A stretch of 64,000 nt of DNA from Siphonodentalium dalli (taxonomy: Eukaryota; Mollusca; Scaphopoda; Gadilida; Siphonodentaliidae). The DNA lies in NCBI GenBank assembly GCA_032622095.1, contig CP136065.1, forward strand, positions 150,789,577 through 150,853,576, read 5' to 3'. Under the pieces are notes generated by a model. The model made no database searches. It saw only the letters and a program-made list of their open reading frames with translations, and was not told where the DNA came from. Below are positions 5,297-63,189 of this stretch, in pieces; position 1 is the stretch's first letter; each line of letters begins with the position of its first letter. A program made the translations under genes and the position numbers.

Positions 5297-5390
5297 ATTG
5301 GCGACAGTTTTTATAACGTACCGGTATATGTATGCATAATCATGTTACAGTATGTAACCTGAGATAGTCCGTAAGTGTCGTAAACTGGTG
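5297..5390. repeat. Dispersed repeat R1, second copy, resumed part
   Basis: It matches 238-325 of the uninterrupted copy ('attggcgacagtttttataacgta..taagtgtcgtaaactggt') and ends where the 5.26-kb foldback element begins. Confidence 0.8.
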
Positions 5391-5398
5391 TATTTTAT
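5390..5398. repeat. 9-bp target-site duplication, left (GTATTTTAT)
   Basis: GTATTTTAT directly precedes the left terminus GGGTCCGTGAAG and is repeated exactly after the right terminus at 10657-10665. Confidence 0.85.
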
Positions 5399-8300
5399 GG
5401 GTCCGTGAAGTTGGATCGAAGTTCGAAGTTCGAAATTCGGTGGAGATTCGCGTGAAGTTAGATTGAAGTTCGAAGTTCGAAATTCAGATTGAAATTCAAC
5501 CCCCACTTTTTTTTGCCTCAACTTCGTTGTTGTGGTCCAATTCGTGCTCCCCTGTTCAAAATTTTGGTCAAAAGTGATTTTTTTAACTTTTTCTGAGATA
5601 CTGTTGGACTTGGAAAATTTAGCCACGCGCTGGACTTAGAAAAATTCGCCTTCAATATCAAGGTGCCGAAGGGAAGTGGCATTGTTTATGGCTGGATCGT
5701 GCTGAAACTTGGCATTTTTTACACTTTCCATAAGAGAATCTAGCAAACTAACGCTCAGCTTCGAGAAATTACTCGATCTATAGGTTTGAATTTCAATCTG
5801 AGCGTTCGAAATTCGGTGGAGATTCGTTCGAAGTTCGAAATTCAGATTGAAATTCAAACCCCACTTTTTTTTGCCTCAACTTCGTTGTTGTGGTCCAATT
5901 CGTGCTCCCCTGTTCGAAATTTTGGTCAAAAGTGATTTTTTTTCACTTTTTCTGAGATACTGTTGGACTTAGAAAATTTAGCCACGGCGCCGAAGGGAAG
6001 TGGCATTGTTTATGGCTGGATCGGGCTGAAACTTGGCATTTTTTACACTTTCCGGTAGAGAATCCAGCAAACTAACGCTCAGCTTCGAGAAATCACTCGA
6101 TTTATAGGTTTGAATTTCAATCTGAGCGTTCGAACCTTCAGTGGAGATTCGTTCGAAGTTCGAAATTCGGTGGAGATTCAACCCCTAATTTTTGTTTTGC
6201 CTCAAGTTCATTGTTGTGTTCCAATTCGTGCTCCCCTGTTCGATTTTGGGTCAAAAGTGATTTTTTAAAACTTTTTTTCTGAGATACTGCTGGACTTTTG
6301 CCACGGCGCTGGACTTGTGACTTGATTTGTGATTTCTAGATGGACTAGTGGTGCACAAGAAGAATCCACAAGGATAGCCCCGTGGTTGCTGTGGTTATCC
6401 ATAAAAATTCGCCCAGATTGAAATTCAGATTGAAATTCAAACCTATAGATCGAGTAATTTCCCGAAGCTGAGCTCAGCTCAATCCAGCCATAAACAATGC
6501 CACTTCCCTTCGGCACCTTAATATTGAAGGCGAAATTTTCTAAATCCAGCGCCGTGGCTAAATTTTCCAAGTCCAGCAGTATCTCAGAAAAAGTAAAAAA
6601 AAATCACTTTTGACCAAAAATTCGAGCAGGGGAGTACGAATTGGAACACAACAATGAACTTGAGACAAAAAAATGTGGGGGGTCGAATTTGAATCTGAAT
6701 TTCGAACTTCAATCCAGATCGAAATTCGCCCAGATTGAAATTCAAACCTATAGATCGAGTAATTTCTCGAAGCTGAGCGTTAGTTTGCTTGATTCTCATA
6801 TGGAAAGTATCAAACATACCAAATTTCAGCTCAATCCAGCCATAAACAATGCCACTTCCCTTCGGCACCTTAATATTGAAGGCGAAATTTTCTAGGTGCA
6901 GCGCCGTGGCTAAATTTTCCAAGTCCAGCAGTGTCTCAGAAAAAGTAAAAAAAAATAACTTTTGACCAAAAATTCGAGCTGGGGTGTACGAATTGGAACA
7001 CAACAATGAACTTGAGACAAAAAAATGTGGAGGTCGAATTTCAATCTGAATTTCGAACTTCAATCCAGATCGAAATTCGCCCAGATTGAAATTCAAACCT
7101 ATAGATCGAGTAATTTCTCGAAGCTGAGCGTTAGTTTGCTTGATTCTCTTATGGAAAGTATCAAACATACCAAATTTCAGCTCAATCCAGCCATAAACAA
7201 TGCCACTTCCCTTCGGCACCTTAATATTGAAGGCGAAATTTTCTAGGTGCAGCGCCGTGGCAAAATTTTCCAAGTCCAGCAGTGTCTCAGAAAAAGTAAA
7301 AAAAAATAACTTTTGACCAAAAATTCGAGCAGGGGTGTACGAATTGGAACACAACAATGAACTTGAGACAAAAAAATGTGGAGGTCGAATTTCAATCTGA
7401 ATTTCGAACTTCAATCCAGATCGAAATTCGTCCAGATTGAAATTCAGATTGAAATTCAAACCTATAGATCGAGTAATTTCTCGAAGCTGAGCGTTAGTTT
7501 GCTTGATTCTCTTATGGAAAGTATCAAACTTATCAAATTTCAGCTCAATCCAGCCATAAACAATGCCACTTCCCTTCGGCACCTTAATATTGAAGGCGAA
7601 ATTTTCTAGGTGCAGCGCCGTGGCTAAATTTTCCAAGTCCAGCAGTATCTCAGAAAAAGTAAAAAAAAAATAACTTTTGACCAAAAATTCGAGCAGGGGT
7701 GTACGAATTGGAACACAACAATGAACTTGAGACAAAAAAATGTGGGGGTCGAATTTGAATCTGAATTTCGAACTACAATCCAGATCGAAATTCGCCCAGA
7801 TTGAAATTCAAACCTATAGATCGAGTAATTTCTCGAAGCTGAGCGTTAGTTTGCTTGATTCTCTTATGGAAAGTATCAAACATACAAAATTTCAGCTCAA
7901 TCCAGCCATAAACAATGCCACTTCCCTTCGGCACCTTAATATTGAAGGCGAAATTTTCTAAATCCAGCGCCGTGGCTAAATTTTCCAAGTCCAGCAGTAT
8001 CTCAGAAAAAGTTAAAAAAAATCACTTTTGACCAAAAATTCGAGCAGGGGAGTACGAATTGGAACACAACAATGAACTTGAGACAAAAAAATGTGGGGGT
8101 CGAATTTGAATCTGAATTTCGAACTTCAATCCAGATCGAAATTCGCCCAGATTGAAATTCAAACCTATAGATCGAGTAATTTCTCGAAGCTGAGCGTTAG
8201 TTTGCTTGATTCTCTTATGGAAAGTATCAAACATACCAAATTTCAGCTCAATCCAGCCATAAACAATGCCACTTCCCTTCGGCACCTTAATATTGAAGGC

Positions 8301-10656
8301 GAAATTTTCTAGGTGCAGCGCCGTGGCTAAATTTTCCAAGTCCAGCAGTGTCTCAGAAAAAGTAAAAAAAAAATAACTTTTGACCAAAAATTCGAGCAGG
8401 GGTGTACGAATTGGAACACAACAATGAACTTGAGACAAAATCTGAATCTGAATTTCGAACTTCAATCCAGATCGAAATTCGCCCAGATTGAAATTCAGAT
8501 TGAAATTCAAACCTATAGATCGAGTAATTTCTCGAAGCTGAGCGTTAGTTTGCTTGATTCTCTTATGGAAAGTATCAAACTTACCAAATTTCAGCTCAAT
8601 CCAGCCATAAACAATGCCACTTCCCTTCGGCACCTTAATATTGAAGGCGAAATTTTCTAGGTGCAGCGCCGTGGCTAAATTTTCCAAGTCCAGCAGTATC
8701 TCAGAAAAAGTAAAAAAAAAATAACTTTTGACCAAAAATTCGAGCAGGGGTGTACGAATTGGACACAACAATGAACTTGAGACAAAAAAATGTGGGGGTC
8801 GAATTTGAATCTGAATTTCGAACTACAATCCAGATCGAAATTCGCCCAGATTGAAATTCAAACCTATAGATCGAGTAATTTCTCGAAGCTGAGCGTTAGT
8901 TTGCTTGATTCTCTTATGGAAAGTATCAAACATACAAAATTTCAGCTCAATCCAGCCATAAACAATGCCACTTCCCTTCGGCACCTTAATATTGAAGGCG
9001 AAATTTTCTAAATCCAGCGCCGTGGCTAAATTTTCCAAGTCCAGCAGTATCTCAGAAAAAGTTAAAAAAAATCACTTTTGACCAAAAATTCGAGCAGGGG
9101 AGTACGAATTGGAACACAACAATGAACTTGAGACAAAAAAATGTGGGGGTCGAATTTGAATCTGAATTTCGAACTTCAATCCAGATCGAAATTCGCCCAG
9201 ATTGAAATTCAAACCTATAGATCGAGTAATTTCTCGAAGCTGAGCGTTAGTTTGCTTGATTCTCATATGGAAAGTATCAAACATACCAAATTTCAGCTCA
9301 ATCCAGCCATAAACAATGCCACTTCCCTTCGGCACCTTAATATTGAAGGCGAAATTTTCTAGGTGCAGCGCCGTGGCTAAATTTTCCAAGTCCAGCAGTG
9401 TCTCAGAAAAAGTAAAAAAAAATAACTTTTGACCAAAAATTCGAGCAGGGGTGTACGAATTGGAACACAACAATGAACTTGAGACAAAAAAATGTGGAGG
9501 TCGAATTTCAATCTGAATTTCGAACTTCAATCCAGATCGAAATTCGCCCAGATTGAAATTCAGATTGAAATTCAAACCTATAGATCGAGTAATTTCTCGA
9601 AGCTGAGCGTTAGTTTGCTTGATTCTCTTATGGAAAGTATCAAACTTACCAAATTTCAGCTCAATCCAGCCATAAACAATGCCACTTCCCTTCGGCACCT
9701 TAATATTGAAGGCGAAATTTTCTAGGTGCAGCGCCGTGGCTAAATTTTCCAAGTCCAGCAGTATCTCAGAAAAAGTAAAAAAAAAATAACTTTTGACCAA
9801 AAATTCGAGCAGGGGTGTACGAATTGGAACACAACAATGAACTTGAGACAAAAAAATGTGGGGGTCGAATTTGAATCTGAATTTCGAACTACAATCCAGA
9901 TCGAAATTCGCCCAGATTGAAATTCAAACCTATAGATCGAGTAATTTCTCGAAGCTGAGCGTTAGTTTGCTTGATTCTCTTATGGAAAGTATCAAACATA
10001 CAAAATTTAAGCTCAATCCAGCCATAAACAATGCCACTTCCCTTCGGCACCTTAATATTGAAGGCGAAATTTTCTAAGTCCAGCGCCGTGGCGAAATTTT
10101 CCGAGTCCAGCAGTATCTCAGAAAAAGTAAAAAAAAATCACTTTTGACCCAAAAGTCGAGCAGGGGAGTACGAATTGGAACACAACAATGAACTTGAGAC
10201 AACAAAATGTGGGGGTCCTGCGCCGTGGCTAAATTTTCCAAGTCCATGCAGCAGTATTTCAGAAAAAAGTGAAAAGATTCACTTTTGACCCAAAATTCGA
10301 GCAGGGGAGCACGAATTGGAACACAACAATGCATTTGAGACAAACAAAAGTGGGGGTCGAATTTCAATCTGAATTTCGAACTTCAATCCAGATCGAAATT
10401 CGCCCAGATTGAAATTCAGATTGAAGGCTATTGAAGGCTAAATTTTCCAAGTCCAGCAGTATCTCAGAAAAAGTAAAAAAAAAAATAACTTTTGACCAAA
10501 AATTCGAGCAGGGGAGTACGAATTGGAACACAACAATGCATTTGAGACAAACAAAAGTGGGGGTCGAATCTCCACCGAATTTCGAACTTCAATCTAACTT
10601 CACGCGAATCTCCACCGAATTTCGAACTTCGAACTTCGATCCAACTTCACGGACCC
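5399..10656. mobile_element. 5.26-kb foldback transposon with tandem-repeat arms
   Basis: The termini are perfect inverse copies starting GGGTCCGTGAAGTTGGATCG, and inverted similarity continues for more than 200 bp. The left arm (5399 to about 6310) holds about two to three monomers in one orientation. A unique spacer of about 100 bp (6311-6412) separates it from a 4.2-kb right arm carrying about eleven monomers in the opposite orientation. A 9-bp GTATTTTAT duplication flanks it. Long inverted repeats built of tandem subrepeats with a 9-bp duplication are the hallmark of FB/foldback elements, and 9 bp is also typical of Mutator-like elements. No transposase was found, so mobilisation must have come from elsewhere. 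The many in-phase ORFs are translations of the repeat. Confidence 0.85.
6450..10206 (+). repeat. Tandem array of ~351/364-bp monomers with A-B-C higher-order unit
   Basis: Monomers start at about 6673, 7025, 7376, 7740, 8091, 8442, 8790, 9141, 9492 and 9856. Spacing is 351 bp except 364 bp when a 13-bp 'cagattgaaattc' is doubled, and one monomer lacks 16 bp near 8440. Variant sites show a repeating trimer: A ('gaactacaatcc', 'ctaaatccagcg'), B ('gaacttcaatcc', 'ctaggtgcagcg') and C (the 364-bp type). Trimer starts 7740, 8790 and 9856 are 1050 and 1066 bp apart. By eye the A monomers at 7740 and 8790 are identical, implying recent amplification. Confidence 0.88.
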
Positions 10657-10665
10657 GTATTTTAT
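10657..10665. repeat. 9-bp target-site duplication, right (GTATTTTAT)
   Basis: Exact repeat of 5390-5398, directly abutting the right terminus ...CTTCACGGACCC. Confidence 0.85.
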
Positions 10666-12960: not shown

Positions 12961-12965
12961 ATTCA

Positions 12966-13833
12966 TGATTTTCCGATAACAACAGACATTATGGACGCCA
13001 TCTTCAATAGAGAATTTTCCCCGAAGCGGATTCTAGCGGATTTTGGATATGTTGTTCCCTACACATTCTGCCCGACAATATGACACCAAAAACAGCTTGT
13101 AAACAATTTGTTCTAGGTCCAATGATTCAACGACCAGACTACGTGCAAACTTCTTACCACTCGCAGTAAGGTTATATGGTTCTGTTGGTCGTGATTATTA
13201 TGTATTTCAACGACAATTGATTGAAAGAACACGCGTCCTAATGACATAGTATACTATTCACAATCGGAGAAAATGAAGCCTTAGTCCCAAATTATGTCAA
13301 CATCGAGTTGGGCAAAATATTAACTGGTGCTGCTGTAACAAGCTTTCTATAAATATCAACAAGAGTAATTATATGCTCATCCACCCCCAAAACAACGACA
13401 AAAAATGGAACACACTGTAAATAATGTTAAACAACACTGCGTTAAATCGAATAGGGATTCTTATACAAGAATCATCTACAAATACCTTGGAATCTATATT
13501 GATGAGAATCCATGGTTTGTTCGAAAATTTCACACGCAGTATACTGCATTACTAAAGTGAAGCATTTTTCCCCAAGTAAAGTTGTGATAACATTATATTA
13601 TGCATTGATCCAAAGCCACTTTGTTTATGGTATTCAGGTCTGGGGACATGTCCCCGAAGTAAAGAATATGTTTCTTTCTGCAAAAACGAGCTTTACAGAC
13701 CATATGCAACAACAGTATAGAAGCCATACCGAACCACTCTTCAAAGGGGAGAATATATTTAATATATACGACCTTCACACTTCATCCCTAGAAACACCAA
13801 TAACTGTTTGGTGTGGAAATCTAACCCATCATA
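12966..13833 (+). repeat. Duplicated segment, copy 1 (contains inverted arm and LINE piece)
   Basis: It runs nearly identically to 15073-16038, from 'catgattttccgataacaac' to 'ctaacccatcat'. Copy 2 carries about 98 extra bases near 15318-15415 after 'attatgtattt'. An oppositely oriented LINE 3' fragment (14003-15073) sits between the copies. The very high similarity suggests a recent segmental duplication or nested insertion. Confidence 0.85.
13440..13833 (+). pseudogene. LINE reverse-transcriptase fragment (frameshifted), copy 1
   Basis: One frame reads 'YKYLGIYIDENPW' and, after a frameshift, 'YALIQSHFVYGIQVWG' and 'SHTEPLFKGENIFNIYDLH'. These are landmarks of the RT thumb and C-terminal region of L2/CR1-like non-LTR retrotransposons. 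Only about 130 residues survive, so the fragment is dead. The downstream ORF to 13940 runs out of the element. Confidence 0.75.
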
Positions 13834-14002: not shown

Positions 14003-15073
14003 CTAGGAAACATTGTGTGTAGTTTGGCCTTTGATGACAGAACAAGTTGCAAGAAGAAATGATGCTGAGTGGAGTAATATGTCGTCCGCACACTCCGTTA
14101 GATGCTGGGGAGGTGCAGAAACGTTCCCTCCGAGTAAGAATGCAGATAGTGATTTATCGTCCAAGGAGTCGTGCATGAAAAGGAATATTTCAATACCAAA
14201 GTGATTTATAATGAATTCCCAGTAGCTATTTCGGAGAGAAAGTATGACTTCTGATGGACAATATCGTACAGCATGGAGGATTTCGTTGTTATAGTGGCAG
14301 TCACAAGCATTGCATCTCAGATTGTTCATGTATGTTGTCTTGTTGAGTAATAGGCCAAGGTTTCGTAGTTGTGCTGAACGGTCGGGATGTTGCTTCAGGG
14401 GTTTCCATATCGTCCAGTTAGTAGTGGGGTCTGTGTGGACCAATCGGAAAGTGTTAAGGGATTGGTTGTTGTCAACAGATAACGACCAGGCAGTCGAGTA
14501 ATGATCCAAAACAGCTTTCTTGTAAATACTTTTCCATGCTGCTTCTGATGGAAATTGACCAGTATTGGTAAATGTGTCCAGGAAGTCGTATAGTTTATAC
14601 GCTTGGAGGATATGAACTATATCGGTCACGAATCCAGTTGTCCGTCGATCAAACAGAGTGTACTGGTAAAACCGTTGGAGAAATATCTTTAAAGGCACCT
14701 GGTGTGTTTGCGGCAGATGTATCAGGTGTCCAAGGAAATTCATCTTCTTCATGTGAATTTCACATTCGAGAGGGAGGAGTCCCAACAAGCTAAGAGCAAT
14801 GTCCGTTGGTGTGCGTTCCGGGAGAGTTTCTATGTGCTTCACACAACAGTGGAGTGCTCGTTCTAGGCAGTGCTTCGTCGAGCGGGTGTCGGTTGTCATC
14901 AGCTCGCTCCCGTAGAGCGCCTTGGGTAGAACAACTGACTTGAGCATAGACCCCATTGTTATGGGAGAGCATGATTTAAGATGTCTGTTTCCAACTAGGG
15001 CGAAATAACTTTTTCTCAGTTTCTGTGTTAGATCAGTAGCTCTGCTATATTCATTTTTGAATTTGTTTTTCAT
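14003..15073 (-). pseudogene. LINE 3' fragment, 356-codon open C-terminal ORF
   Basis: The ORF begins near the RT thumb region ('KLRKSYFALVG', 'LPKALYGSEL'), continues 'HIETLPERTPTDIALSLLGLLPLE', and ends with a zinc-knuckle-like region around 'CNACDCHYNNEILHAVRYCPS'. This C-terminal arrangement is typical of non-LTR retrotransposons of marine invertebrates. It is 5'-truncated exactly at the junction with the duplicated segment, so the apparent start codon is fortuitous. The frame is intact over 356 codons, which suggests a fairly young copy. It lacks the endonuclease and the RT catalytic core. Confidence 0.8.
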
Positions 15074-16038
15074 GATTTTCCGATAACAACAGACATTATG
15101 GACGCCATCTTCAATAGAGAATTTTCCCCGAAGCGGATTCTAGCGGATTTTGGATATGTTGTTCCCTACACATTCTGCCCGACAATATGACACCAAAAAC
15201 AGCTTGTAAACAATTTGTTCTAGGTCCAATGATTCAACGACCAGACTACGTGCAAACTTCTTACCACTCGCAGTAAGGTTATATGGTTCTGTTGGTCGTG
15301 ATTATTATGTATTTAAATGTGGGTCAGTCAGTGGTTGTCTCGATGATTCCATGCAAAGCTCGCGTGCCCATGCTTAGCTTCTCAAAACCGCGTATTCGTA
15401 ACAGATATGACAAAACGACAATTGATTGAAAGAACACGCGTCCTAATGACATAGTATACTATTCACAATCGGAGAAAATGAAGCCTTAGTCCCAAATTAT
15501 GTCAACATCGAGTTGGGCAAAATATTAACCGGTGCTGCTGTAACAAGCTTTCTATAAATATCAACAAGAGTAATTATATGCTCATCCACCCCCAAAACAA
15601 CGACAAAAAATGGAACACACTGTAAATAATGTTAAACAACACTGCGTTAAATCGAATAGGGATTCTTATACAAGAATCATCTACAAATACCTTGGAATCC
15701 ATATTGATGAGAATCCATGGTTTGTTCGAAAATTTCACACGCAGTATACTGCATTACTAAAGTGAAGCATTTTTCCCCAAGTAAAGTTGTGATAACATTA
15801 TATTATGCATTGATCCAAAGCCACTTTGTTTATGGTATTCAGGTCTGGGGACATGTCCCCGAAGTAAAGAATATGTTTCTTTCTGCAAAAACGAGCTTTA
15901 CAGACCATATGCAACAACAGTATAGAAGCCATACCGAACCACTCTTCAAAGGGGAGAATATATTTAATATATACGACCTTCACACTTCATCCCTAGAAAC
16001 ACCAATAACTGTTTGGTGTGGAAATCTAACCCATCATG
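15073..16038 (+). repeat. Duplicated segment, copy 2
   Basis: Matches 12966-13833 with a 98-bp insertion near 15318. Just after the match, a 52-bp piece ('catccctagaaac..aacccatcatgcc') is repeated at 16080-16132. Confidence 0.85.
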
Positions 16039-16132: not shown

Positions 16133-16579
16133 CTTCGCAACCACATGTAAGAATCTATAGAAGAGGAATACACATCGGATTAAACAATACATACTAAACA
16201 AATATTCTGAAAATGTGAAATGTAAAAATGTTGGATGTCGGGACTGCACTGTTCAAGATGCTGCAATCATATCAATTGTGCACCTATTGTAAATTGTATA
16301 CACATATCAACACACTCCACCCCGCAATCATGCAATTAATGAATCCCAGATACGTGATAATTCCCCAAAACCTCACCCACAAATTGCCTTCCCGGTGAAC
16401 TACGCAAAATATTTTAGTTATTGTTACGAACAATGGTCCGGGTTGGTACCCATAAAATTCAACATGTCTGTAACACACCTTTGATGCTATTTCCACATGC
16501 TACGATATAGTCTGTGCGCTTACGTGGAGATGAACGCCCACATACGCCATCATTAAACAATCGTAACGATACCTATATA

Positions 16580-16736
16580 TATATACCACCGGGGGATGGC
16601 AGGAAGACAGCTTGCCAGGGCTATGTTATCCACTAGCAATATACAACATACCTGTTTATGTATTGTTGGTGATATGTTTGCTGTACATGTGTGTAGTGTG
16701 AATAAAGTTATCCTATCCTATCCTACCTATACACTG
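16580..16736 (+). mobile_element. Retroelement 3' end with AATAAA and (TATCC)n tail
   Basis: The segment ends 'gtgtgaataaagttatcctatcctatcctacc', an AATAAA signal followed by a short simple-repeat tail as seen at the 3' ends of CR1/L2-type LINEs and their SINEs. It abuts the vWA exon, and its pyrimidine-rich tail forms part of the 3' splice-site tract of that exon. Confidence 0.55.
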
Positions 16737-16740
16737 CCAG

Positions 16741-17306
16741 GTTGCTATCAAGATGCCGATATTGCACTCGTGATCGACTCATCGTCAAGCATCACCAACG
16801 ATGATTTCAAAACTGGGATGAACTTCCTCATTGAATTCGCCAAGCAATTCAACATTGGACCAAATGAAGTGAGATTAGCAATCATCACATACAGCAACAA
16901 AACTCACAAAGAAGAGGCCATCAGATTTACAGAAACCACGAACGTCAACGATCTGGTAGAAGCAATGAAAAACATTACGCATCATGCAGGCTGCATATGA
17001 CGGAAACAGGTGACGCGATAAAATACATGAGAGAGATATTAATTAAGGAGGCAAGAAATGACGTAAAGAAGATTGGAATTGTCATAACGGACGGGATGTT
17101 ACAGGAATGGACTAAGACGAGAGAGGAAGCTAAAAAGACTCGGGATGCCGGAATCGATATGGTTGCCATTGGAGTCGGCAAGGAAAATGTCAACAAGGAC
17201 GAGGAACTTAAGAGAATCGCAAGCCGTGAAGAGTTCATCTTCGATATTGCGAATTATACAGATCTCTTCAAGATCAAGGATCGTCTGGTCGAAGTCACAT
17301 GTCCGG
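16741..17306 (+). CDS. von Willebrand factor A domain exon, one-base frameshift
   Basis: The exon lies between an acceptor (..tacactgccag) and a donor (gtaagc), both in phase 1, and starts and ends with the cysteines that commonly bracket vWA domains. The protein reads CYQDADIALVIDSSSSI (MIDAS D-x-S-x-S), then 'VRLAIITYS', 'TETGDAIKYM' (MIDAS threonine region), 'IGIVITDG' (MIDAS aspartate) and 'GIDMVAIGVG'. This is a metal-binding vWA fold, as in matrilin, collagen VI or related matrix and adhesion proteins. The frame breaks at 16996-17000 (stop TGA), and the rest continues in another frame from 16997. The exon is 566 nt, one short of the multiple of three expected for a symmetric 1-1 exon, so a single base is missing. 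Either an indel error or a pseudogene. Upstream and downstream exons were not recognised. Confidence 0.85.
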
Positions 17307-19400
17307 GTAAGCAATTATACCTTTGAGTTATCGCAAAACTAGTAGGATCTTGTCAGATGCGCATACTCTCTCCTTTATTATGGTGCGTGGGTTTGGGTTA
17401 ATTTTAAACCCTTTATATACTAAATATACTCATTTCCCTTTGGAAATGTTCAGATAATAAGTTCAACAAACGACCAATATAGCGTGAACTTATCATCTAA
17501 ATATTTCCTATCAATGAACATGAATTCTTCTGCACTAATTGTATTTATATATAGAATTTCATCTGACTGTCGTCTGCTAATTTATCCTGAACACCCCTTC
17601 AAATAAATAATAATTTACCATTATCATGCAAAGGAAATGGAAACAAATACTCGCAATAACAATTATTCGTATCACACAAAATCGCACAAGTACAGCATGT
17701 CCAAAACGATCACGAGTTCGGTCTTTAAATATATATCCTCCGCTTTGGGCGACGGAAACATGGACGTTTTTTAAAAGAGGCGATCGTTTGGAATTTTTGC
17801 TAGGATGACAAAAATAAAAAACGAGATAATAATTCATCTTTTGAAAGTCGATATACATGTAGTGTGTATGAGTCATAACCCGCCCGTTGTATGGTTGATG
17901 TACGGATTCAAATCCTTGCATTATGAAGCGACCAAATGTTCAAGAGGCGGCCTGTTCGTGAATTTTCAAAAACTCTCAATTTCTAACTATCAATTTGAAG
18001 GAAACAATCATTGTATGCTATAGTACTATAACAAAAACACATATTTACCCTCACAATATGAGAGATATGTTTGAATTATGTAGAAAAATTGGTGTAAAAA
18101 AACTACCAATTTGTCATGTAGGTCACTAGAGAGTTTGACAGGAAGTATTTGCAAAAAACACTACTTTATCTATCTTATTATACCAACTAGGGTCTGCACT
18201 CGGTCTACTATCTGAAATCATCACTATCTGTTAGAAAATAAATCAGAAAGTCTTTATTTTATTTTGTAGTTTTTTATTAGCCATTTGCAGAACTATTTTT
18301 TTGGAGGAAAAGTCACCATAAAACAACATAATGTCCAACAAGATGAATCAGTATTGAGTGTTTACGTCTGTCCGATTATTGCAAACGTGGATGAATAATA
18401 TTTTTGTTATTTTGGTCCTCCACACGACAAAAAAACATTAGTTCTGCAAATGGCCACCAAAAAAACTAAAATATGCAATGAAATTTTTTTTATTTTTTTT
18501 CTCGCAGACATTCATGTTAACTATCCTTGGAGCAATGAACTATGACATTTATTATTTCCGATCCCTCATTAATTTGATTTCACTGAACGTAGTATAAACT
18601 TTCACCAAAAATCACCATTGGGATACTAGTCATATCTCAAGAAAATGAGCAGAACTGTGCAGTGTAAGTGAGCCATACCATTACTTATGAATATTTCAAC
18701 GCAAGGAACCAAAATTGTTAATTTAGCTCAAAAATTGCTGACAAAATGGCGCCAAACTATGGGAAATGGCAGATATTGCCCTGTAATCGCTTATAATATG
18801 TGGTTGATGAATAAAATCGACTGAGCTAGATATTTGTAAACTTTGTATGTTTTGAGATGTTCGCAGTTTATGGTACATGATCCCATTTATTCAACAACGT
18901 ACATTGATGCCATATTCGTTATATCAAGTTTAAACATCTGCGTATATGTATATTTGTTATGGGTGAATTATTATGTTCATATTTTGGAAACTCTTGTTCT
19001 ATAAGAGAGTAACAATTGAAAACCACCGTCCAAAAAAGACTGATTGGTCATCTCAGATGTGGCAATTCACCAAAACAAAAAAACGTATCCCCATACACTT
19101 TACACGTGTGACCGCTTCTCGCTTCTAGCTTTTCGATGCTCGTATCTTAATTGTCAGATTTTCGCTGGCGTTAGAACGCGGCGGTTCACATTCGGCATGT
19201 ATACCATGATGCACGAGTGTTAGCTCGACGATATATAGAGCCACTACTGCTAAACGATTTGTCTAGTTGGGACCAATTTAAACCGAAGATGGCGAATACG
19301 TCACTTATATATAGACCTCGCGTTCAAACGATGAATTAACTGTCGCCCATCAAGCATAGCAGACTTTACACACCTCTCCTAATGTTTGCCCGATGTCACC
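17307..19400. other. No gene seen; small inverted repeat at 18277-18455
   Basis: AT-rich, probably intronic or intergenic. The only clear structure is 'gccatttgcagaacta' (18280) paired with 'tagttctgcaaatggc' (18440), about 150 bp apart. ORFs are short and have no domain. Confidence 0.5.
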
Positions 19401-25124: not shown

Positions 25125-25640
25125 CACTGTCATGAATTTTGCTCGAGTACTATTCATATAAGACACATAACTTAATAAATGAACCCAGTTTACGACGTCG
25201 CCATTGTAGTCGCGCGTTCATGTTATGACGTCATAAAACGATGTAATTGGAGCCCGTAAACCTCTCTAAACCAAACACCATTCGGATCGGCCATTCTATT
25301 CGGGTTAGAGGTGTGTTCGGTTCATAGATACTTTAACCTGAACCTGAACCTTTCTTTTCCAGAAACCACGACGGTCAAACCCGGAAATATCGAAGTGAGT
25401 ATATAATTAAATGTTGATCCCATAGGGTAAAGCGGGGTGTAGAAAATAGACACTGTGTGGAGTATGGCCGGACAGAATCCGGACACTGAGATATAAGTTT
25501 CGCCATTAAATTTCCATATAGAAATTGTAATTCCCACTCATCAGTTAACTAATTTAGAAATTTTACCCCAAATTTAATTTTTGGGGCATTTTAATTAAAA
25601 TTTTATGTTCGCAAAAACATCTTAAGTCACGTATACTAAC
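25125..25640 (+). repeat. Repeat R7, copy 2, left part
   Basis: Aligns with copy 1 from 'catgaattttgctcgagtac' and ends in 'aagtcacgtatactaac'. The repeat resumes at 26115 after a MITE insertion and is interrupted again at about 26170-26452. Confidence 0.82.
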
Positions 25641-26114
25641 GCTGATGGGGTCATTGTCACAAGGCTCCTGTCACATTCGTAGCCAGCTTTTTAAATCGAT
25701 CACAAATGTAGCCAGCTTTTCTACGGCGATCACATTTGTAGCCAGCTTTTCATATGAGCCTCAATGAACAAGATTAGGTTAGTCTCATTTTTCTGAGTTG
25801 ATGAATGAAAAACAACATAAATTTTAATTTTATATCAGTTCATCTAATAACCCGAGGTTACCGATCAATGTCGTTAGAACTTAGATGCTCGAATTATATT
25901 CCAATATAAGTTGATAAACGAAGTCAGTTTTGGAGCATGACGTCGATATTTTAGTCACGAACGCGATGACGTCATATTTCGCGCCATATAAAGCATGGAA
26001 TTAAAAAAGCTGGCTACGAATGTGATCGCCGCAGAAAAGCTGGCTACATTTGTGATCGATTTAAAAAGCTGGCTACGAATGTGACCGGAGCCTTGTGACA
26101 ATGACCCCATCGGC
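25641..26114. mobile_element. 474-bp foldback MITE with 9-bp target duplication
   Basis: Terminal inverted repeats start GCTGATGGGGTCATTGTCAC and extend about 105 bp. Each arm contains three diverged copies of a ~29-bp 'gatcacatttgtagccagctttt' unit. The exact 9-bp duplication TATACTAAC lies at 25632-25640 and 26115-26123. No ORF of note. Subterminal tandem repeats plus a 9-bp duplication point to a Mutator-like or foldback family. The insertion sits within repeat R7, whose copy 1 lacks it. Confidence 0.88.
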
Positions 26115-26169
26115 TATACTAACTAGGCATGCAATCGATTGTAAGCATCAGTTTGTTCCATTAGATACA

Positions 26170-42244: not shown

Positions 42245-42690
42245 CCAAATTTCAAGTCGATAGCTCCACCCGTTTCCGAGATCTGGTCTGCGCATGCGCG
42301 AAGCTGGCGTCGCACGGGCTCGGCGATCCGATAAAATTCGTATCCGGGGCAAGATACATTCACATAGCAAATTTCAAGTCGATAGCTCCACCCGTTTCCG
42401 AGATCTCGTCTGCGCATGCGCGAAGCTGGCGTCGCACGGGCTCGGCGACCCGATAAAATTCGTATCCGGGGCAAGATACATTTACATACCAAATTTCAAG
42501 TCGATAGCTCAACCCGTTTCCGAGATCTCGTCTGCGCATGCGCGAAGCTGGCGTCGCACGGGCTCGGAAACCCGATAAAATTCGCATCCGGGGCAAGATA
42601 CATTCACATAGCAAATTTCAAGTCGATAGCTCCACCCGTTTCCGAGATCTCGTCTGCGAAGCGGGCGCCGCACGGGCTCGCCAATATGAC
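42245..42690 (+). repeat. 122-bp tandem repeat, about 3.7 copies
   Basis: Units starting 'caaatttcaagtcgatagct' at 42245, 42367, 42489 and 42611 share 'cccgtttccgagatct' and 'gcgaagctggcgtcgcacggg'. The unit is GC-rich compared with its surroundings. Overlapping ORFs on both strands (R/A-rich) arise from the repeat. Confidence 0.92.
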
Positions 42691-53700: not shown

Positions 53701-56048
53701 TTATATGCCATTTGAAAGAGGAAGCTCCAAAACATTGTATTGTCAACTTATCCGGTGAAATAAACTGTGAACATGTTGTTTTTGTTGAGAGGTACTGGAC
53801 TGTACTGCAAAGTCAATTATTTCAGAAGGGGGATAACTCTATATTTTAGTTTGAATTATGTTGCATTCTGGGAGCGAAACGGGGGAATGTTTCTATGAGT
53901 TCAGCTATTTTCTATTACTCAATATGGGCATCTTCTGCGACACAGACGTTCCAAATGGTGATGAATTGCAGTATATTAATTATATTTTATGTCATATATT
54001 GTTATTAAAACCGTATATCAAGGCACTATACACAAAAATAATCAATGACTCGAAAATTAAATTGGCCTTTAAGCAGGCATCGATAATTTGAACTTTAAAA
54101 ATGTGCATGCGTTTACTTCGCCAGTAGAGACAAAATTATCCTGATAAATACACGAAATACTCGTATTATACATACCGTGTATACTCAGAAAAACGTACCG
54201 ATGTCATAGCAACAGTTGTTTTTCACATACATGTATAGGTGATCCAAACACTCCTTTATTCGTATCATATCAGGAATATACTAACGACGAACGCTCTTTA
54301 TTCTTTCATGCTGAACAAAAATCTGGATCCGTTTTATCTTTGAGTCCATACATGAAGGATTTAACATATACATATATATCGCCTACATCCATGTCCGGAA
54401 CCGCCCCGGCTGTAACACAATGGATCATTATTTCGTGTTTTAAACCACCACAGGGGTATTAAACGCTCTCAAAAACTGATCAAACCGAAACATTTGAGTT
54501 GATACTGACCATTAAAACTTCCCACGAATGGGCTCATTTCGTGTTCGGAAAATGGACATAGAGTAGTTCTCGTGTAAAATCGGATGTGGAGTCTTTTAAT
54601 TGTGTGCATGGACGTGGCTAGAGGGTATCAATAGGGAGGGTGTATATAATACACCTTGAACTTTCCAATTTCACCCCCTCCCACACACACACACTTGAAC
54701 CAGACCGATACATTTGCACCCCTTCGCCTGGTATCTCCAGCTTTCCAGAAAACTGCAACCTAAGTTTGGAATATTTGCAACTGATGGCCATTTCAGACCA
54801 ACATTTTGACCAAACGTAGAAAGATATGCTACTGTTGGTCTAAAATTACCCACGAATTGCTGGCTTGGAATATCAAGTAATGAGAACAATTTCAACCTAG
54901 TATATGAGGTGTAAATTTCTAAACTAATGTTGCGCCAAACTTCCAACTGTTGAAAATTTTGACAAAACTTGGAGTGGTCCCTATATGGCCACGTCCCTGA
55001 TTGCATGGGCAAGATATATGGGATGAGTACATGTACACTTTTTGTTCATTCCAGGATGAAGCCAAATACACCGACCTCGTCAACGTCATGCTGAAGGGCG
55101 GAAATGACGAAACGCCCAGGCTTTCCGAGAGAAGTATCGTTGCTCAAAGCATGACATTTTTGTTGGCTGGTTACGAGACGACAAGCACCGTCTTAACGTA
55201 CATGAGCCACATCCTCGCATTCCACCAAGACGTACAGAAAAAGCTGTGTGACGAGATTGACAAGAAAATAGGACAGGTAGGCACATCGATATAGCGAAGG
55301 ACTTTATTGCTTCAATATTCACAAACCCAAGATAGACCAAAGTGCATGTAATCTGTCGGTATTTTAGTATACTTTAAATTAATTTATCATAGGAGCCTAA
55401 ATTTTGGCAAATTAGTAGACATAAAATGGTAAAATCTTATGAGATAAACTATGATGATGCTTGCTTTACACATACTTCATTGCAGTTTATGACACATGTC
55501 GTTATAACATCAACCATGCAGGTTACCCCAAAGTTGGTTCAAATCGGTTCAGGGTTCATTGAACTGTTGACTGTGCACCGAATGCTTCTCAGTTATAGCA
55601 ATAGTTAATACTGAATAACATATATCAGTTGAAATAATAAAGATGAATATGCTATATAATCAATCATTCACTCGCTCTGATAAATGAATCTTCTGGATTT
55701 GTAATTACACATAAATTCTTCGTTTTCCAGAAAGAAGTATGTTATGACGATCTTCACGATTTGCCATATTTCGACATGGTCTTCGACGAAGTTTGCCGAC
55801 TCTACCCAACAGCTTCTCTGTAAGTGAACTGATATACGACATATACGCACGTTGGCATATATGCTTCTGTTTGGCATGTATAATAAGCTTGAAACATTTA
55901 TTAAATATATGGATGATTTATTTTTTGGAATTCAAAGGGAGACAATTCGTAAAGTCGAAATCAGGTGATATACTTTTTGAAGAGTATCTAACCCTTTCAT
56001 GACTGGAGCTTCCTGACATTTTACGAAAATCCTGTGCCAATGCATTCT

Positions 56049-56084
<36 letters not shown>

Positions 56085-57680
56085 AGTCGACCGTAGGTCG
56101 CCTGGCATTTAAAAGAGATAGCATTTAGCCTAACAATATTTACGTTGATCTTGTAAGCCAGTGCATTCTCTTATATATGTGGGGCGACTCGCATATATAA
56201 GAGAATGCACTGGCACAGGGTCTTTAACGGTGCGCCAGCGAAGCTCCCGTCATAATAGGGCTAAAAACTAAAGTGAATCAAAATGCAATCGAAACATTTT
56301 GAAAATTACTACACACGAACGCTTATTTGGTAGACACATTGGTTTTCATGTTAAAATAAATCCTTTGTGGGATAAATAATAGTTTTCAATTGAAAAGAAC
56401 GTATAGTATCTGGGTTTATTTTAGATATGTGAACAACCCTTACAGTAGCGCAAAACGTTCTAGCTTTCCCAAACGAACCAACATTTTGAGAACATAATTG
56501 AACGGATATATGGCTCATTCGAGCTTCCAAATATTGTCTACGTAATTTGGAACTATGTATAATATAGTTGGACCAATACACGAAATATTAATATACCGGC
56601 TTCATATATATGCTCTGAAAAAAATAAGTTTCATTGTCACAGCAATTTTTCCTTTTTGTCACACATAATTGAAATAAACGCTCTTTGTTTCTATACCATA
56701 TCAGAAATAGACTATTTCGGAACGCTCTTTTCTATTCCATATTGTCGTGCAAATGGCTGTTTTTTGCTTCGTGTTCAATGTTGTATTTTGTATGAATTCA
56801 AAACATCTTTATGGGACATATAATGTTCGTGAAAGGTAGCTCAAATATTTATCGACCTATGGGGGGGGGGGAGTTTAAAGCGAATATTATTAGGTGTAAA
56901 TAGGACAGGTAGGCACATCGATATAGCGAAGGACTTTATTGCTTCAATATTCACAAACCCAAGATAGACCAAAGTGCATGTAATCTGTCGGTATTTTAGT
57001 ATACTTTAAATTAATTTATCATAGGAGCCTAAATTTTGGCAAATTAGTAGACATAAAATGGTAAAATCTTATGAGATAAACTATGATGATGCTTGCTTTA
57101 CACATACTTCATTGCAGTTTATGACACATGTCGTTATAACATCAACCATGCAGGTTACCCCAAAGTTGGTTCAAATCGGTTCAGGGTTCATTGAACTGTT
57201 GACTGTGCACCGAATGCTTCTCAGTTATAGCAATAGTTAATACTGAATAACATATATCAGTTGAAATAATAAAGATGAATATGCTATATAATCAATCATT
57301 CACTCGCTCTGATAAATGAATCTTCTGGATTTGTAATTACACATAAATTCTTCGTTTTCCAGAAAGAAGTATGTTATGACGATCTTCACGATTTGCCATA
57401 TTTCGACATGGTCTTCGACGAAGTTTGCCGACTCTACCCAACAGCTTCTCTGTAAGTGAACTGATATACGACATATACGCACGTTGGCATATATGCTTCT
57501 GTTTGGCATGTATAATAAGCTTGAAACATTTATTAAATATATGGATGATTTATTTTTTGGAATTCAAAGGGAGACAATTCGTAAAGTCGAAATCAGGTGA
57601 TATACTTTTTGAAGAGTATCTAACCCTTTCATGACTGGAGCTTCCTGACATTTTACGAAAATCCTGTGCCAATGCATTCT

Positions 57681-57716
<36 letters not shown>

Positions 57717-60370
57717 AGTCGACCGTAGGTCGCCTGGCATTTAAAAGAGATAGCATTTAGCCTAACAATATTTACGTTGATCTTGTAAGCCAGTGCATTC
57801 TCTTATATATGTGGGGCGACTCGCATATATAAGAGAATGCACTGGCACAGGGTCTTTAACGGTGCGCCAGCGAAGCTCCCGTCATAATAGGGCTAAAAAC
57901 TAAAGTGAATCAAAATGCAATCGAAACATTTTGAAAATTACTACACACGAACGCTTATTTGGTAGACACATTGGTTTTCATGTTAAAATAAATCCTTTGT
58001 GGGATAAATAATAGTTTTCAATTGAAAAGAACGTATAGTATCTGGGTTTATTTTAGATATGTGAACAACCCTTACAGTAGCGCAAAACGTTCTAGCTTTC
58101 CCAAACGAACCAACATTTTGAGAACATAATTGAACGGATATATGGCTCATTCGAGCTTCCAAATATTGTCTACGTAATTTGGAACTATGTATAATATAGT
58201 TGGACCAATACACGAAATATTAATATACCGGCTTCATATATATGCTCTGAAAAAAATAAGTTTCATTGTCACAGCAATTTTTCCTTTTTGTCACACATAA
58301 TTGAAATAAACGCTCTTTGTTTCTATACCATATCAGAAATAGACTATTTCGGAACGCTCTTTTCTATTCCATATTGTCGTGCAAATGGCTGTTTTTTGCT
58401 TCGTGTTCAATGTTGTATTTTGTATGAATTCAAAACATCTTTATGGGACATATAATGTTCGTGAAAGGTAGCTCAAATATTTATCGACCTATGGGGGGGG
58501 GGGAGTTTAAAGCGAATATTATTAGGTGTATTTTGTAACGCAAACCGCCATGTGGCTTTAATTTTGTACGATTTTCCGACAAATTTAATCGCATGGACCC
58601 CCAAAGTTGAAAAATAGGATTGACAAAACCTACGAAATGCTCCATATAATTGTATTGGTGATTCAATAATGATTTTCAATGTTATTTGTTTTCTCGCTAA
58701 ATTCAAGTGTTCATTGTTGATTGAATCAAAGCTAACGGCAATATTTGCTATTTTGCAGTATTGTTACACGCCAAGCGTCGAACACAGCATGCTACAACGG
58801 GCTCACTGTACCAGCTGGCATGAATGTACAGGCAAACGTGTGGTCACTGCATCACGACGAACAATACTGGCATCAGCCGGAGAAATTCGACCCAGAACGG
58901 TAAGCATCATCAGGGTTAGCTGGAGTTATTTGATAACATTCCGGTTACTTGTATGGAATCACACCTCCAAAGACCTAAAGCTTTGTCAGATTTGATGCCG
59001 AATAATTCATAATTTCCTAAGAAGTTAAGAAACTTTTTGGCTTAAAGATACGTATGATCTTCGCGATGGGTATTGTTGTTAAAATATAGTCGCATCCGTT
59101 AAAATCACCATAAGCAGATTTGGTCTTATACCAAACTATAAATATAGCATAAATAACATGTTATTGTCAAAATCGTACGCAATGTTATTAAACAAGACTG
59201 ATACAGTACAGTACGTAAAGAGTGTTCGATAACCAAACATTCAACACCGGGGAGATCCCACAAAGTGAACTGTGGTTGAAACTGTTTACAACATACCGTT
59301 ATATTGCTCGTTGATTCTCGCCACTCAGTATATTGGTATGGAATTGGTCACCATGTATCAATCTCCCCAAAAAATTGACCACGGTGTTGTTTTGTTTTGC
59401 TTATCGCACACACTTAATGTGGTGTATATAAACAAATAGGTTCCATTTATATTCTATGAGCGGAGGTTCGTTTAAGTTTCAAGAAGTTGACGTCCAATAG
59501 CCCAATATTTGTACTGCAGCTATACAAAAGAAATATGTTTGAAGGCCCACTGAATTTTCGAGTCAGCGATTATTTTGTTATAGTGCCTTGATATACGGTT
59601 TTAATAACAATCTATGCCATAAAATATAATTAAAATACTATAATTCACCACCACTTGGAACGTCTGGAACTCATAATGTGCCCACAGAGTAATAGAAAAT
59701 AGCAGAAATCATAAAATCATTCCCCCCCCCCCCCCTTGACTTCCAGAATGCAACATAATTCGTACTAAAGATGCATTTTCAATGGAAGGGGAATAACTCT
59801 ATATCTAAATATATAGAGTTATTCCTCTTCCATTGAAAATAATTGATATTGTGCATAAATTTGATAACAGAATAGACGCCAGTTTCTCAACAAAAACAAC
59901 ATGTTCACAGTTTATTGCATCGAATAACTTGAAAAGACAATATTTTGGAGCTTACTCTTTCAAATGGTATATAATATGGCATATATTTTATAGAATTTGA
60001 TTTGGGGGTTCGAAAATTAAGTGGGCCTTTAAATCAGAAAATGTGCAAATAGCAGTATTGTGGTGTCTCCAATTCTGTTCTGATCAGTATTATTTATTAT
60101 ATTTTCAGGTTCTCTAAAGAGGGCAAACAGGCGATTACGCCATACAGTTTCCTTCCGTTTGGTGCTGGACCACGATATTGCATCGGTATGAGGTTCGCTT
60201 CGCTCGAAATAAAAACTGTTCTCATAAACATTCTTCAAAAATATCGATTCGACACATGTTCGGAAACTGAATACATTCTGAAACTGGAAGCACGCGGAGC
60301 AATAGTTCCTACCGGTGACGTCAAACTGAAGCTGACGCCTCGGACACGAATCGTGGCCAATTCCGGTTGA
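44749..60370 (+). CDS. Cytochrome P450, CYP3 clan, complete 11-exon gene
   Basis: Heme-thiolate monooxygenase of the CYP3 clan (CYP3A/thromboxane-synthase-like), predicted to be anchored in the endoplasmic reticulum and to hydroxylate small lipophilic substrates with electrons from NADPH-P450 reductase. Exons: 44749-44798, 46070-46166, 47494-47546, 49732-49828, 51364-51554, 52463-52611, 53465-53592, 55055-55276, 55731-55819 (or its copy 57363-57451), 58759-58899, 60109-60370. All junctions are GT..AG with matching phases. The total is 1479 nt, 492 residues, normal for the family. Visible features: N-terminal anchor 1-17, proline hinge LGIPGPKP 29-36, helix C WRHSR 119-123, I-helix AGYETT 293-298, ExxR EVCR 349-352, FDPERF 402-407 and heme loop [10 protein letters not shown] 423-432 with Cys430. 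All catalytic motifs are intact. The start is the first ATG after an in-frame stop and begins the anchor. The substrate cannot be predicted. Confidence 0.95.
44872..45112 (+). repeat. 128-bp tandem duplication in P450 intron 1
   Basis: 'tcgattgtatccaaattatg' at 44872 and 45000 begin two nearly identical 128-bp copies, ending in 'tgtcatatactgcag'. Confidence 0.9.
45815..45981. mobile_element. 167-bp MITE in P450 intron 1
   Basis: Terminal inverted repeats of about 30 bp ('aagcgttttccggatttatt' and 'aataaatccgggaaacgctt') enclose four copies of 'ataccccggaaactata'. Confidence 0.82.
46070..46166 (+). CDS. P450 exon 2: proline-rich hinge
   Basis: Acceptor 'ttttttatag', donor GTTCGT. Completes W17, then [20 protein letters not shown] and '[11 protein letters not shown]'. 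LGIPGPKP is the conserved hinge between anchor and catalytic domain. Confidence 0.9.
46249..46640 (-). pseudogene. LINE 3' fragment in P450 intron 2
   Basis: On the minus strand, '[17 protein letters not shown]' and a zinc-knuckle-like '[22 protein letters not shown]' match the C-terminal end of the LINE at 29580. A short (TGAATC)n-like 3' tail lies at 46250-46270. Antisense to the gene, about 70 codons only. Confidence 0.75.
47494..47546 (+). CDS. P450 exon 3
   Basis: Acceptor 'ttccacttcag', donor GTGAGT. Encodes [17 protein letters not shown](G), phase 0 in and phase 2 out. Confidence 0.85.
47774..48240. repeat. Poly-T tract and 'gggcataactctgg' repeat in P450 intron 3
   Basis: A 24-base T run (47774-47797) is followed by 'aaagggcataactctggtaaaa' (47981) and two diverged copies of 'caaacccaa.ttt.aacttgac.tgtattttc'. 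This type of repeat is widespread in mollusc-like genomes. Class uncertain. Confidence 0.5.
48317..48449. repeat. Near-perfect 130-bp palindrome in P450 intron 3
   Basis: 'tctgttcaataagaatcact' (48326) is mirrored by 'agtgattcttattgaacaga' (48420-48439). The arms meet at 'cgttcgatatatcgaacg' (48372-48389). Confidence 0.85.
49732..49828 (+). CDS. P450 exon 4
   Basis: Acceptor 'gtttaacatttcag', donor GTAAGT. Encodes [20 protein letters not shown] then [12 protein letters not shown], the beta-1/helix-B region (family pattern 'G..PVL.v.DP..ik.iLvk'). Confidence 0.92.
50719..51336. mobile_element. TTAA-flanked MITE in P450 intron 4
   Basis: TTAA|CCCTTTCATGACTGGAGC opens and GCTCCCGCCACGAACGGG|TTAA closes the element. 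A TTAA duplication with CCC termini is the piggyBac signature. It carries two copies of the 'gcctcgcatatataagagaatgcattggc' palindromic module (about 50760-50826 and 51217-51293), with an R5 repeat copy (50827-51201) between them. Non-coding. Confidence 0.75.
50827..51201 (+). repeat. Dispersed repeat R5, copy in P450 intron 4
   Basis: Begins TTAAAGACATATTATG and ends CATCACTTTAA. Matches 52773-53123 and the inverse of 41625-41991. Confidence 0.8.
51364..51554 (+). CDS. P450 exon 5: helix C WxxxR
   Basis: Acceptor 'tcctctgtttcag', donor GTGAGG. Encodes [20 protein letters not shown], then [21 protein letters not shown]119-x3-R123 contacts a heme propionate in the family. Exits in phase 2. 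Confidence 0.95.
52463..52611 (+). CDS. P450 exon 6
   Basis: Acceptor 'cataatattcag', donor GTAAGT. Encodes [20 protein letters not shown] then [20 protein letters not shown]. '[10 protein letters not shown]' is the helix-E CYP3-clan pattern. Enters in phase 2, exits in phase 1. There is no ATG-initiated ORF here; the exon was found by frame and splice phase. Confidence 0.92.
52773..53123 (+). repeat. Dispersed repeat R5, copy in P450 intron 6
   Basis: Same order of landmarks as 50827-51201 with about 10-15% divergence by eye. Confidence 0.8.
53465..53592 (+). CDS. P450 exon 7
   Basis: Acceptor 'ccctttgttttcag', donor GTAAAT. Encodes (M)[20 protein letters not shown], then [20 protein letters not shown]. 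Helix F-G region, part of the substrate and membrane-facing surface. Phase 1 in, phase 0 out. Confidence 0.9.
53643..53850 (+). mobile_element. MITE (TTAAAGGCCYACTTAATTTTC family) in P450 intron 7
   Basis: Shares 'ttaaaggcc.acttaattttcgaa', 'ttatatgccattt.gaagagg' and 'gggataactctatat' with copies at 59540-60035 and 60689-60915. Confidence 0.7.
55055..55276 (+). CDS. P450 exon 8: I-helix
   Basis: Acceptor 'ttgttcattccag', donor GTAGGC. Encodes [16 protein letters not shown] then '[20 protein letters not shown]'. AGYETT carries the oxygen-activating A/G-G-x-E/D-T-T signature. 74 codons, phase 0-0. Its last 11 bp and donor are duplicated at 56898. Confidence 0.96.
55731..55819 (+). CDS. P450 exon 9, first copy: ExxR
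   Basis: Acceptor 'cttcgttttccag', donor GTAAGT. Encodes [20 protein letters not shown] then [10 protein letters not shown]349-x2-R352 forms the K-helix salt bridge of the heme pocket. 89 nt, phase 0 in and phase 2 out, so only one copy can be used per transcript. Confidence 0.94.
55992..56260. mobile_element. TTAA-type MITE, in duplication unit 1
   Basis: CTAA|CCCTTTCATGACTGGAGC..GAAGCTCCCGTCATAATAGGG|CTAA. A 4-bp duplication CTAA, a variant of TTAA, flanks it. It contains a (TA)n run and two copies of the GCCAATGCATTCTC palindromic arm. Confidence 0.75.
57363..57451 (+). CDS. P450 exon 9, second copy
   Basis: Base-for-base the same as 55731-55819, including acceptor and donor. Including both copies would add 89 nt and shift the frame, removing the heme-binding end. 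Use of exactly one copy, in either case giving the same protein, is required. Confidence 0.85.
57624..57892. mobile_element. TTAA-type MITE, in duplication unit 2
   Basis: Copy of 55992-56260 at +1632 bp, carried by the tandem duplication and not by a separate insertion. Confidence 0.75.
58759..58899 (+). CDS. P450 exon 10: PERF region
   Basis: Acceptor 'tttgctattttgcag', donor GTAAGC. Encodes [20 protein letters not shown] then [20 protein letters not shown] and EKFDPER. The 'yW..PEkFdPERF' meander motif is intact. Phase 2-2. Confidence 0.95.
59540..60035. mobile_element. Two MITE copies head to head, with central hairpin
   Basis: 'gaaggcccactgaattttcgag' (59540) opens and 'cgaaaattaagtgggccttta' (60012) closes inverted copies of the 53643 family. 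At the junction, 59774-59803 and 59809-59840 are near-perfect inverse arms ('attttcaatggaaggggaat' against 'attcctcttccattgaaaat'). A C14 tract lies at 59722-59735. Confidence 0.72.
60109..60370 (+). CDS. P450 exon 11: heme-cysteine loop and stop
   Basis: Acceptor 'ttatattttcag', stop TGA 60368-60370. Encodes [38 protein letters not shown] and a normal CYP3-type tail to IVANSG. Cys430 is the thiolate ligand. No AATAAA is visible in the next 200 bp; TATAAA at 60535 is a weak candidate poly(A) signal. Confidence 0.96.
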
Positions 60371-62130: not shown

Positions 62131-62157
62131 TTAAAGACACGAGTTCGAGATAAACGG

Positions 62158-62631
62158 TAATATATGTGACCCGCCATATCAAATCCAGTCGTAAGTCGGG
62201 ATTTTTTTAACCCTGTGCCAATGCATTCTCTTATATATGCGAGTCGACCATATGTCGCCTCGCATATATAAGAGAATGCATTGGCGTAACAATTTTTTAT
62301 AATTTTAATAATTTTTTCTTGTATTCTTTAACAATTTTATAATTTCACCCATACAGAGCCCCAGAAAAACATGAGCAGACGACACTCTTCTATATGCTTC
62401 TATATATGTGTGGGGCTCCCTGCAGGGTAATGGATGTTTTTTATTTTATGTCCTAAAAATTGTAAGAAACATTTATTTTTAAAAAATGATAAAAAATTGT
62501 TAGGCCAATGCATTCTCTTATATATGCGAGGCGACCTATGGTCGACTCGCATATATAAGAGAAGGCATTGGCACAGGGTAAAAAAAATCCCGACTTACGA
62601 CTGGATTTGATATGGCGGGTCACATATATTA
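62158..62631. mobile_element. 474-bp near-perfect foldback with four palindromic modules
   Basis: Arms of about 125 bp start TAATATATGTGACCCGCCAT and are mirrored to 62631. Each arm contains a complete GCCAATGCATTCTCTTATAT..GCGAG hairpin (62217-62285 and 62503-62573), so palindromes nest within a palindrome. The centre has 'gagccccagaaaaac' and 'gtgtggggctc' as a weaker inverted pair. No coding sequence. Confidence 0.88.
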
Positions 62632-63189
62632 CACATCATTAGAAGCGGATGTATCTACCGACCATAATCAAACTCGCAAATTAACGGCTCCATAGGTCTA
62701 CTTCTCGTATTTATTAAAAATATCACTTCCAGAACCCTCTAGTGTTTTTTTTTTCTTCGAATTAATCATGACGGCCATGTTATGTGAGTTGGTCGGGAGT
62801 ACTATTTATTATAATATTCTTGCGTTGTTTGAAGCATACTACAGTTAGGTGGACTGAGTCAGCTTTTCGTGCTATTATTTCTGCGCGCAATATGGTATCG
62901 ATGGGTGTGGTCGACACGGATAAATATAGCGAATGTTAGTAGTTTTGCAACGTAACCTCTTTAAGTTTGCAATATTCTAATTGATAGGCCTACATGTATA
63001 TACCTCATTGTCAGAACCAGTTAGAAATTACGAACCTAACGCAATAACCCAGGTATGGGTGGGTGGAATGTCTTGAACTGAATGTAAATTCAGTGTAATA
63101 TTTTGACTCAAAGTTGAACAATATTTAGTTGGTTATTGATCTGAACACAAAATATTTTACACTATACATTGATTGGAAAGGTCCCGTCT

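Follow-up and report, generated by a model that had tools for sequence, protein, structure and literature searches.

A foldback-type DNA element with asymmetric tandem-repeat arms and a higher-order order of monomer types in Siphonodentalium dalli

The FB elements of Drosophila melanogaster are characterized by 9-bp target site duplications (TSDs) and by long inverted repeats with internal repetition, and both features recur in an element from a 64-kb stretch of DNA of the scaphopod Siphonodentalium dalli, the whole of which was analyzed and is referred to as the window. The subrepeats of FB span only tens of bases, unlike the units of the S. dalli element, and the statement of a preceding sequence-only reading that known subrepeats are much shorter is accurate for FB. 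It does not extend to Tetris and Galileo F, whose repeats measure ~220 bp (PMC4079207) and ~210 bp (PMC3573991), respectively, in the available excerpts of their descriptions, on which the following comparisons are also based.

Tetris from Drosophila virilis and D. americana has the same anatomy as the S. dalli element, as judged by its description: it is an apparently non-autonomous foldback element with modular terminal inverted repeats (TIRs) that contain internal tandem repeats (PMC4079207). TSDs of 8-9 bp flank three complete copies and TSDs of 9-10 bp four rearranged ones, and its authors placed the element in Mutator based on TSD length and on earlier suggestions for foldback elements. 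The number of repeats differs between two alleles, which has been discussed as a possible outcome of unequal crossing-over, and a 37-bp stretch is common to the repeats and the outer TIR domain. In contrast to Tetris, with its shorter repeat and an outer domain of up to 866 bp, the repeat of the S. dalli element has ~351 bp and its outer domains only 55-62 bp; satellite-like arrays of up to 66 copies have been demonstrated for Tetris, but none for the present element (PMC4079207).

Foldback-like TIRs are also found in Galileo F of Drosophila mojavensis, in which the number of repeats is unequal between the TIRs of one copy, as is the case here; each TIR contains two or three repeats, compared to ten full monomers in the S. 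dalli element (PMC3573991). The tandem TIR repeats of Galileo hold further transposase-binding sites (PMC3688188). Galileo belongs to the P superfamily and has 7-bp targets (PMC3573991), whereas the duplicated target here has 9 bp and thereby differs from that of this superfamily. Tm1 of Meloidogyne resembles the present element in having foldback-like TIRs, a 9-bp TSD and unequal unit numbers at its ends, and one Tm1 group codes for a putative Mutator transposase from the Phantom subclass (PMC3169594). Unlike the present element, Tm1 has units of mostly 14 bp, with 1-9 units per TIR, and non-inverted 7-bp motifs beyond the TIRs (PMC3169594).

The S. dalli element is very probably a non-autonomous foldback-type DNA transposon with ancestral arms of tandem ~350-bp units, the right array of which would have grown by unequal exchange or slippage.

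Boundaries and anatomy of the element

The element covers positions 5399-10656 of the window; these coordinates exclude the TSD, which adjoins outside. It consists of the following features:

5390-5398, unstranded: left copy of the TSD, 9 bp, GTATTTTAT
5399-5474, plus strand: left tip of the terminal inverted repeat, 76 bp, exact
5399-6316, plus strand: left arm, 918 bp, tip and about 2.5 units
6317-6404, unstranded: centre, 88 bp, without similarity to the monomer
6405-10656, minus strand: right arm, 4252 bp
6480-10013, minus strand: ten complete right-arm monomers, 348-363 bp, types arranged A C C B A C B A C B
10083-10590, minus strand: three outer right-arm units, truncated or diverged, the last one overlapping the tip
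10581-10656, minus strand: right tip of the terminal inverted repeat, 76 bp, exact
10657-10665, unstranded: right copy of the TSD, 9 bp, GTATTTTAT

The sequence-only reading had described a complete foldback transposon with exact inverse termini, a 9-bp duplication, a unique centre of ~100 bp and arms of ~350-bp monomers measuring ~0.9 and 4.2 kb, and this description was borne out by the boundaries and lengths listed above. The termini form an exact inverted repeat of 76 bp, of which the left tip has a weak internal period of 47 bp. The two TSD copies agree at nine of nine positions, an agreement that two random 9-mers at this base composition would reach with a probability of ~6.5e-6. Apart from the 88-bp centre, which is the sole internal stretch without similarity to the monomer, such similarity is missing only at the extreme ends of the element, over 55 bp at the left end and 62 bp at the right end. 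The number of units in the left arm was derived from unit spacings.

The arms are complementary at 80-82% over ~870-920 bp in the nine best alignments, and at 71.6% over 987 columns when aligned in register from both tips. Folded as DNA, a 1000-base piece spanning the centre (5860-6859) reaches -299 kcal/mol, compared to a mean of -113 kcal/mol (sd 5) for 20 shuffles. The region around the centre folds far better than all of these shuffles, and the term foldback is literally apt. The element has the long inverted repeats able to pair and the internal tandem repeats of the foldback class as well as a TSD immediately beyond the inverted termini.

Two further inverted-repeat structures were observed in the window. 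A second pair of 9-bp TSDs, TATACTAAC at 25632-25640 and 26115-26123, surrounds a 474-bp MITE-like element (25641-26114) with the termini GCYGATGGGGTCATTGTC, in which 108 of the first 120 arm bases match and whose tips do not resemble the tips found in the foldback element. A lax TSD scan returned matches of at least 9 at 5 of 300 random places; the TATACTAAC match, however, adjoins the MITE-like arms. The other structure, at 62157-62632, is a MITE-like inverted repeat with 150-bp arms of 97% complementarity and the tips GTAATATATGTGACCCGCC, and no clear TSD was found at its flanks.

Repeat units in each arm and the arrangement of monomer types

Tandem Repeats Finder (TRF) reports a period of 351 with 10.6 copies, 94% matches and a score of 6682 at 6474-10217; a different tandem repeat of the window, at 42246-42658, has a 122-bp unit in 3.4 copies with 96% matches (TRF). 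The complete right-arm monomers, R01-R10, were delimited from anchor to anchor, and one left-arm unit (324 bp) could be cut likewise. Identity among the ten right monomers is 89.3-99.7% when gaps are counted and 96.0-100% when only substitutions are, and the right arm thus contains tandem, homogenized monomers such as are typical of a satellite. The left unit is 73.2-79.0% identical to these ten monomers with gaps counted and 88.4-91.4% by substitutions. A 161-base core is present in 16 units, three on the left and 13 on the right, and over this core the units of the left arm share a mean ungapped identity of 92.2%, those of the right arm 95.6%, and units from opposite arms 89.2%. The figure for the left arm hinges on one close pair, L5472 and L5830 (97.4%); the third left unit is 89-90% identical to both, and is as distant from them as from many right units. 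Within the right arm, nine units with untruncated core at 6549-9368, plus the one at 9731, share 95.7-100% mutual identity; the identity of the outer units R10220 and R10436 with the other right units is 88-94%.

The distance between the left unit and the right monomers, combined with tips that are identical over 76 bp, would also fit a chimera, in which arms of two diverged subfamilies were joined by recombination and the right arm had been long beforehand. Chimeric copies have been documented in Galileo, but according to the available excerpts these are flanked by different 7-bp sequences (PMC3573991). Both flanks are identical here, and a chimera would therefore need transposition after the joining. 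In an unrooted tree, the outermost right units R10220 and R10436 group with the left-arm units (support 0.86), which also speaks against separate origins of the arms, although raw identity does not reproduce this grouping: R10436 shares 92-94% identity with the right core and 88-90% with the left units, and R10220 is likewise closer to the right core, but only slightly (88-92% compared to 87-89%). Because tree and raw identity disagree, these two units are not confidently called relics of a shared ancestral arm. Taken together, a chimeric origin is unlikely, and growth of the right array from ancestral tandem arms is the preferred reading.

The right monomers fall into three types. Type A comprises R01, R05 and R08 (99.4-99.7% alike by substitutions), type B comprises R04, R07 and R10 (99.7-100%), and type C comprises R02, R03, R06 and R09 (98.6-99.4%). 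A 12-base insertion is common to R03, R06 and R09 and missing from R02, and R06 has lost a further stretch. The array reads ACCB-ACB-ACB, with a strict period of three in the last seven monomers and a register that is shifted once by the extra C. An alternative order, A B' C B A C' B A C B, was rejected, as R02 differs by only two substitutions from R09 of type C, which had been masked by gap columns.

Substitution identity at lags 4, 7, 3 and 6 amounts to 98.1, 98.8, 98.9 and 98.4%, respectively, compared to 97.4-97.7% at lags 1, 2, 5, 8 and 9; the high identity at lags 4 and 7 besides 3 and 6 is consistent with a single register shift by the extra C. When the monomer order was permuted, a period-three contrast as strong as the observed one was reached in 45 of 20000 permutations with gap columns counted and in 594 of 20000 by substitutions alone, the latter being the weaker test. 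Periods of 2, 4 and 5 had no excess under permuted order, either with gap columns or by substitutions alone. Among the 4200 arrangements of three A, three B and four C, there are 20 that maintain a single cyclic direction over nine or more runs, as the observed order does; this test was chosen post hoc. Thus, the right array has a higher-order pattern of monomer types, and this claim survives the corrected order. The order ACCB-ACB-ACB suggests that blocks of ~1.05-1.07 kb were duplicated, most simply via unequal exchange.

Near-identical units might also result from a false inverted or tandem duplication in the assembly. The B monomers R04 and R07 differ by no substitution, and the window contains a head-to-tail duplication of 1633 bp with 100% identity (55266-58530), which is either very recent or itself an assembly artefact, as well as a two-part duplication with 99.7-100% identity (12962-13832 and 15069-16037) that repeats an open frame starting with ESMVCSK. 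The exact 1633-bp duplication is a warning that the assembly may inflate the tandem copy number of the array. The arms, however, differ from each other by substitutions and indels, the monomers vary individually in sequence and in length (348-363 bp), and the two TSD copies match perfectly. An artefact could account for the copy number at most and not for the element, and as an explanation it is highly improbable.

Tips, coding content and mobilization

The tips are more similar to each other than the units beside them. L5472 and R10436, the outermost units adjoining the tips, differ at 11.2% of aligned sites, whereas the 76-base tips have no difference at all. At 11.2% divergence, which yields the preferred figure, and assuming independent sites, the chance of finding no difference in 76 bp is 1.2e-4; at 20% divergence, it is 4.3e-8. 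Identical tips would be explicable by selection for transposase recognition until a recent insertion or by conversion between the tips.

The tip motif recurs in the monomer with 18 of 20 bases, and one of 2000 shuffles gave an equally good match. With at most two mismatches, it is present in all ten full right monomers and was not found outside the element within the 64-kb window; the 12-base tip, with at most one mismatch, is restricted to the two ends of the element in this window. By analogy with Galileo, the monomers may carry additional transposase-binding sites. This idea is weakened by the inner left-arm units, from which the motif is missing at up to two mismatches.

The motif also bears on the possibility that a pre-existing genomic satellite was captured by a foldback element or recombined into it. 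The array is indeed homogeneous and its types follow a higher-order arrangement, as in a true satellite, which speaks for this possibility. However, the left arm contains units of the same family in mirror orientation, and the monomer includes a motif of the tips, both of which suggest that the unit is native to the element. Capture is thus quite improbable compared to the growth of native units in one arm.

The three longest open frames of the element are located in antisense orientation at 6584-7807, 8022-8822 and 9072-9923 and encode 407, 266 and 283 amino acids, respectively. A Pfam scan of these frames gave no match at the cut-off and no transposase. Below the cut-off, eight, four and five matches were obtained for the 407-, 266- and 283-aa frames, with weak matches recurring across all three; the best one was WWE_1 (E 4.6e-5, 24.1 bits compared to a cut-off of 27). 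In the 407-aa frame, variable sites are distributed equally across codon positions (6/110, 6/112 and 6/112). Monomer R05 has no open frame, yet only 32 of 2000 shuffles of R05 have one. A coding role of the long antisense frames was set aside because of the sub-cut-off Pfam matches, the equal variation across codon positions and the lack of an open frame in R05. Given the recurring weak matches and the 32 of 2000 shuffles with a frame, a chance origin of these frames is likely but not proven.

As the element contains no recognizable gene, it was probably mobilized in trans and is probably non-autonomous. The length of the TSD, a feature that is not specific to Mutator, suggests that the transposase was most likely of the Mutator type.

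Other coding sequences were noted in the window. Two overlapping frames at 16557-17326 jointly match a von Willebrand A domain over the greater part of its profile (positions 1-73 and 79-171 of 174); the reading frame changes near 16990, and the two represent exon pieces or a broken copy. Three further frames resemble retrotransposon remains by eye and had no match in Pfam; like the von Willebrand A domain, they would be in line with an animal host.

Proposed growth of the right arm and its significance

A transposase made elsewhere would have recognized the tips, and perhaps also the related motif in the units. The element would then have been excised and inserted into GTATTTTAT, producing the 9-bp duplication by cut-and-paste in trans. 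Tandem ~350-bp units would already have made up its ancestral arms. The array in the right arm would have expanded through unequal exchange or slippage, first from unit to unit and later among three-unit blocks of the order A-C-B, until it comprised ten near-identical monomers, with older and more diverged units remaining at the outer edge. A homogeneous core with diverged edges is the pattern expected from unequal exchange in the evolution of satellites, and the outermost right units are indeed more diverged than the core. The proposal of the sequence-only reading that one arm was enlarged by exchange among its own repeats is supported by the ordered monomer types and the diverged outer units, from which this mechanism is inferred. 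Its further suggestion of a transposon seeding a satellite is supported only in part, as the sole array seen stops at the element's own termini.

A weakness of the transposon reading is that the element is known from a single copy: no further copies of any of its parts were found in the 64-kb window at E 1e-3, and neither a second locus nor an empty site nor a transposase was found in viral and prokaryotic collections. Exact patterns of the tip and the monomer, one of each, had no matches in these contig collections, which has little weight for an animal host, and a blastn search of 5399-5800 against phages gave no match. In literature text, the 12-14 bases of the tip retrieved only work on cGAS that is unrelated as judged by title and abstract, and no published description of the element was apparent from the titles and abstract beginnings of the matches listed. 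A search of literature excerpts also revealed no published counterpart of a higher-order pattern within the TIR of an intact transposon.

The principle of such an element has already been published for Tetris, and the present element is a new example of a known design. Distinctive here are the longer monomer and the stronger asymmetry, both of which are matters of degree, and the higher-order pattern inside an intact element. In the excerpts considered here, units of hundreds of bases occur in few foldback-type elements, namely Tetris and Galileo F, to which the present element adds a family with a longer unit. It captures clearly the step that has been proposed for Tetris, in which native tandem units expand in one arm while the element and its TSD are still complete. 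The short left arm offers a comparison within the same element for a less expanded state, and block-wise exchange is suggested by how the monomer types are ordered. A more far-reaching reading, which is tentative and rather doubtful, is that of an intact, bounded transposon with a young satellite in one arm that is already organized at a higher order (ACCB-ACB-ACB). If true, satellite-type homogenization, including that of multi-monomer blocks, would have its start within a mobile element, which could transport the array as one package before this array becomes a genomic satellite.
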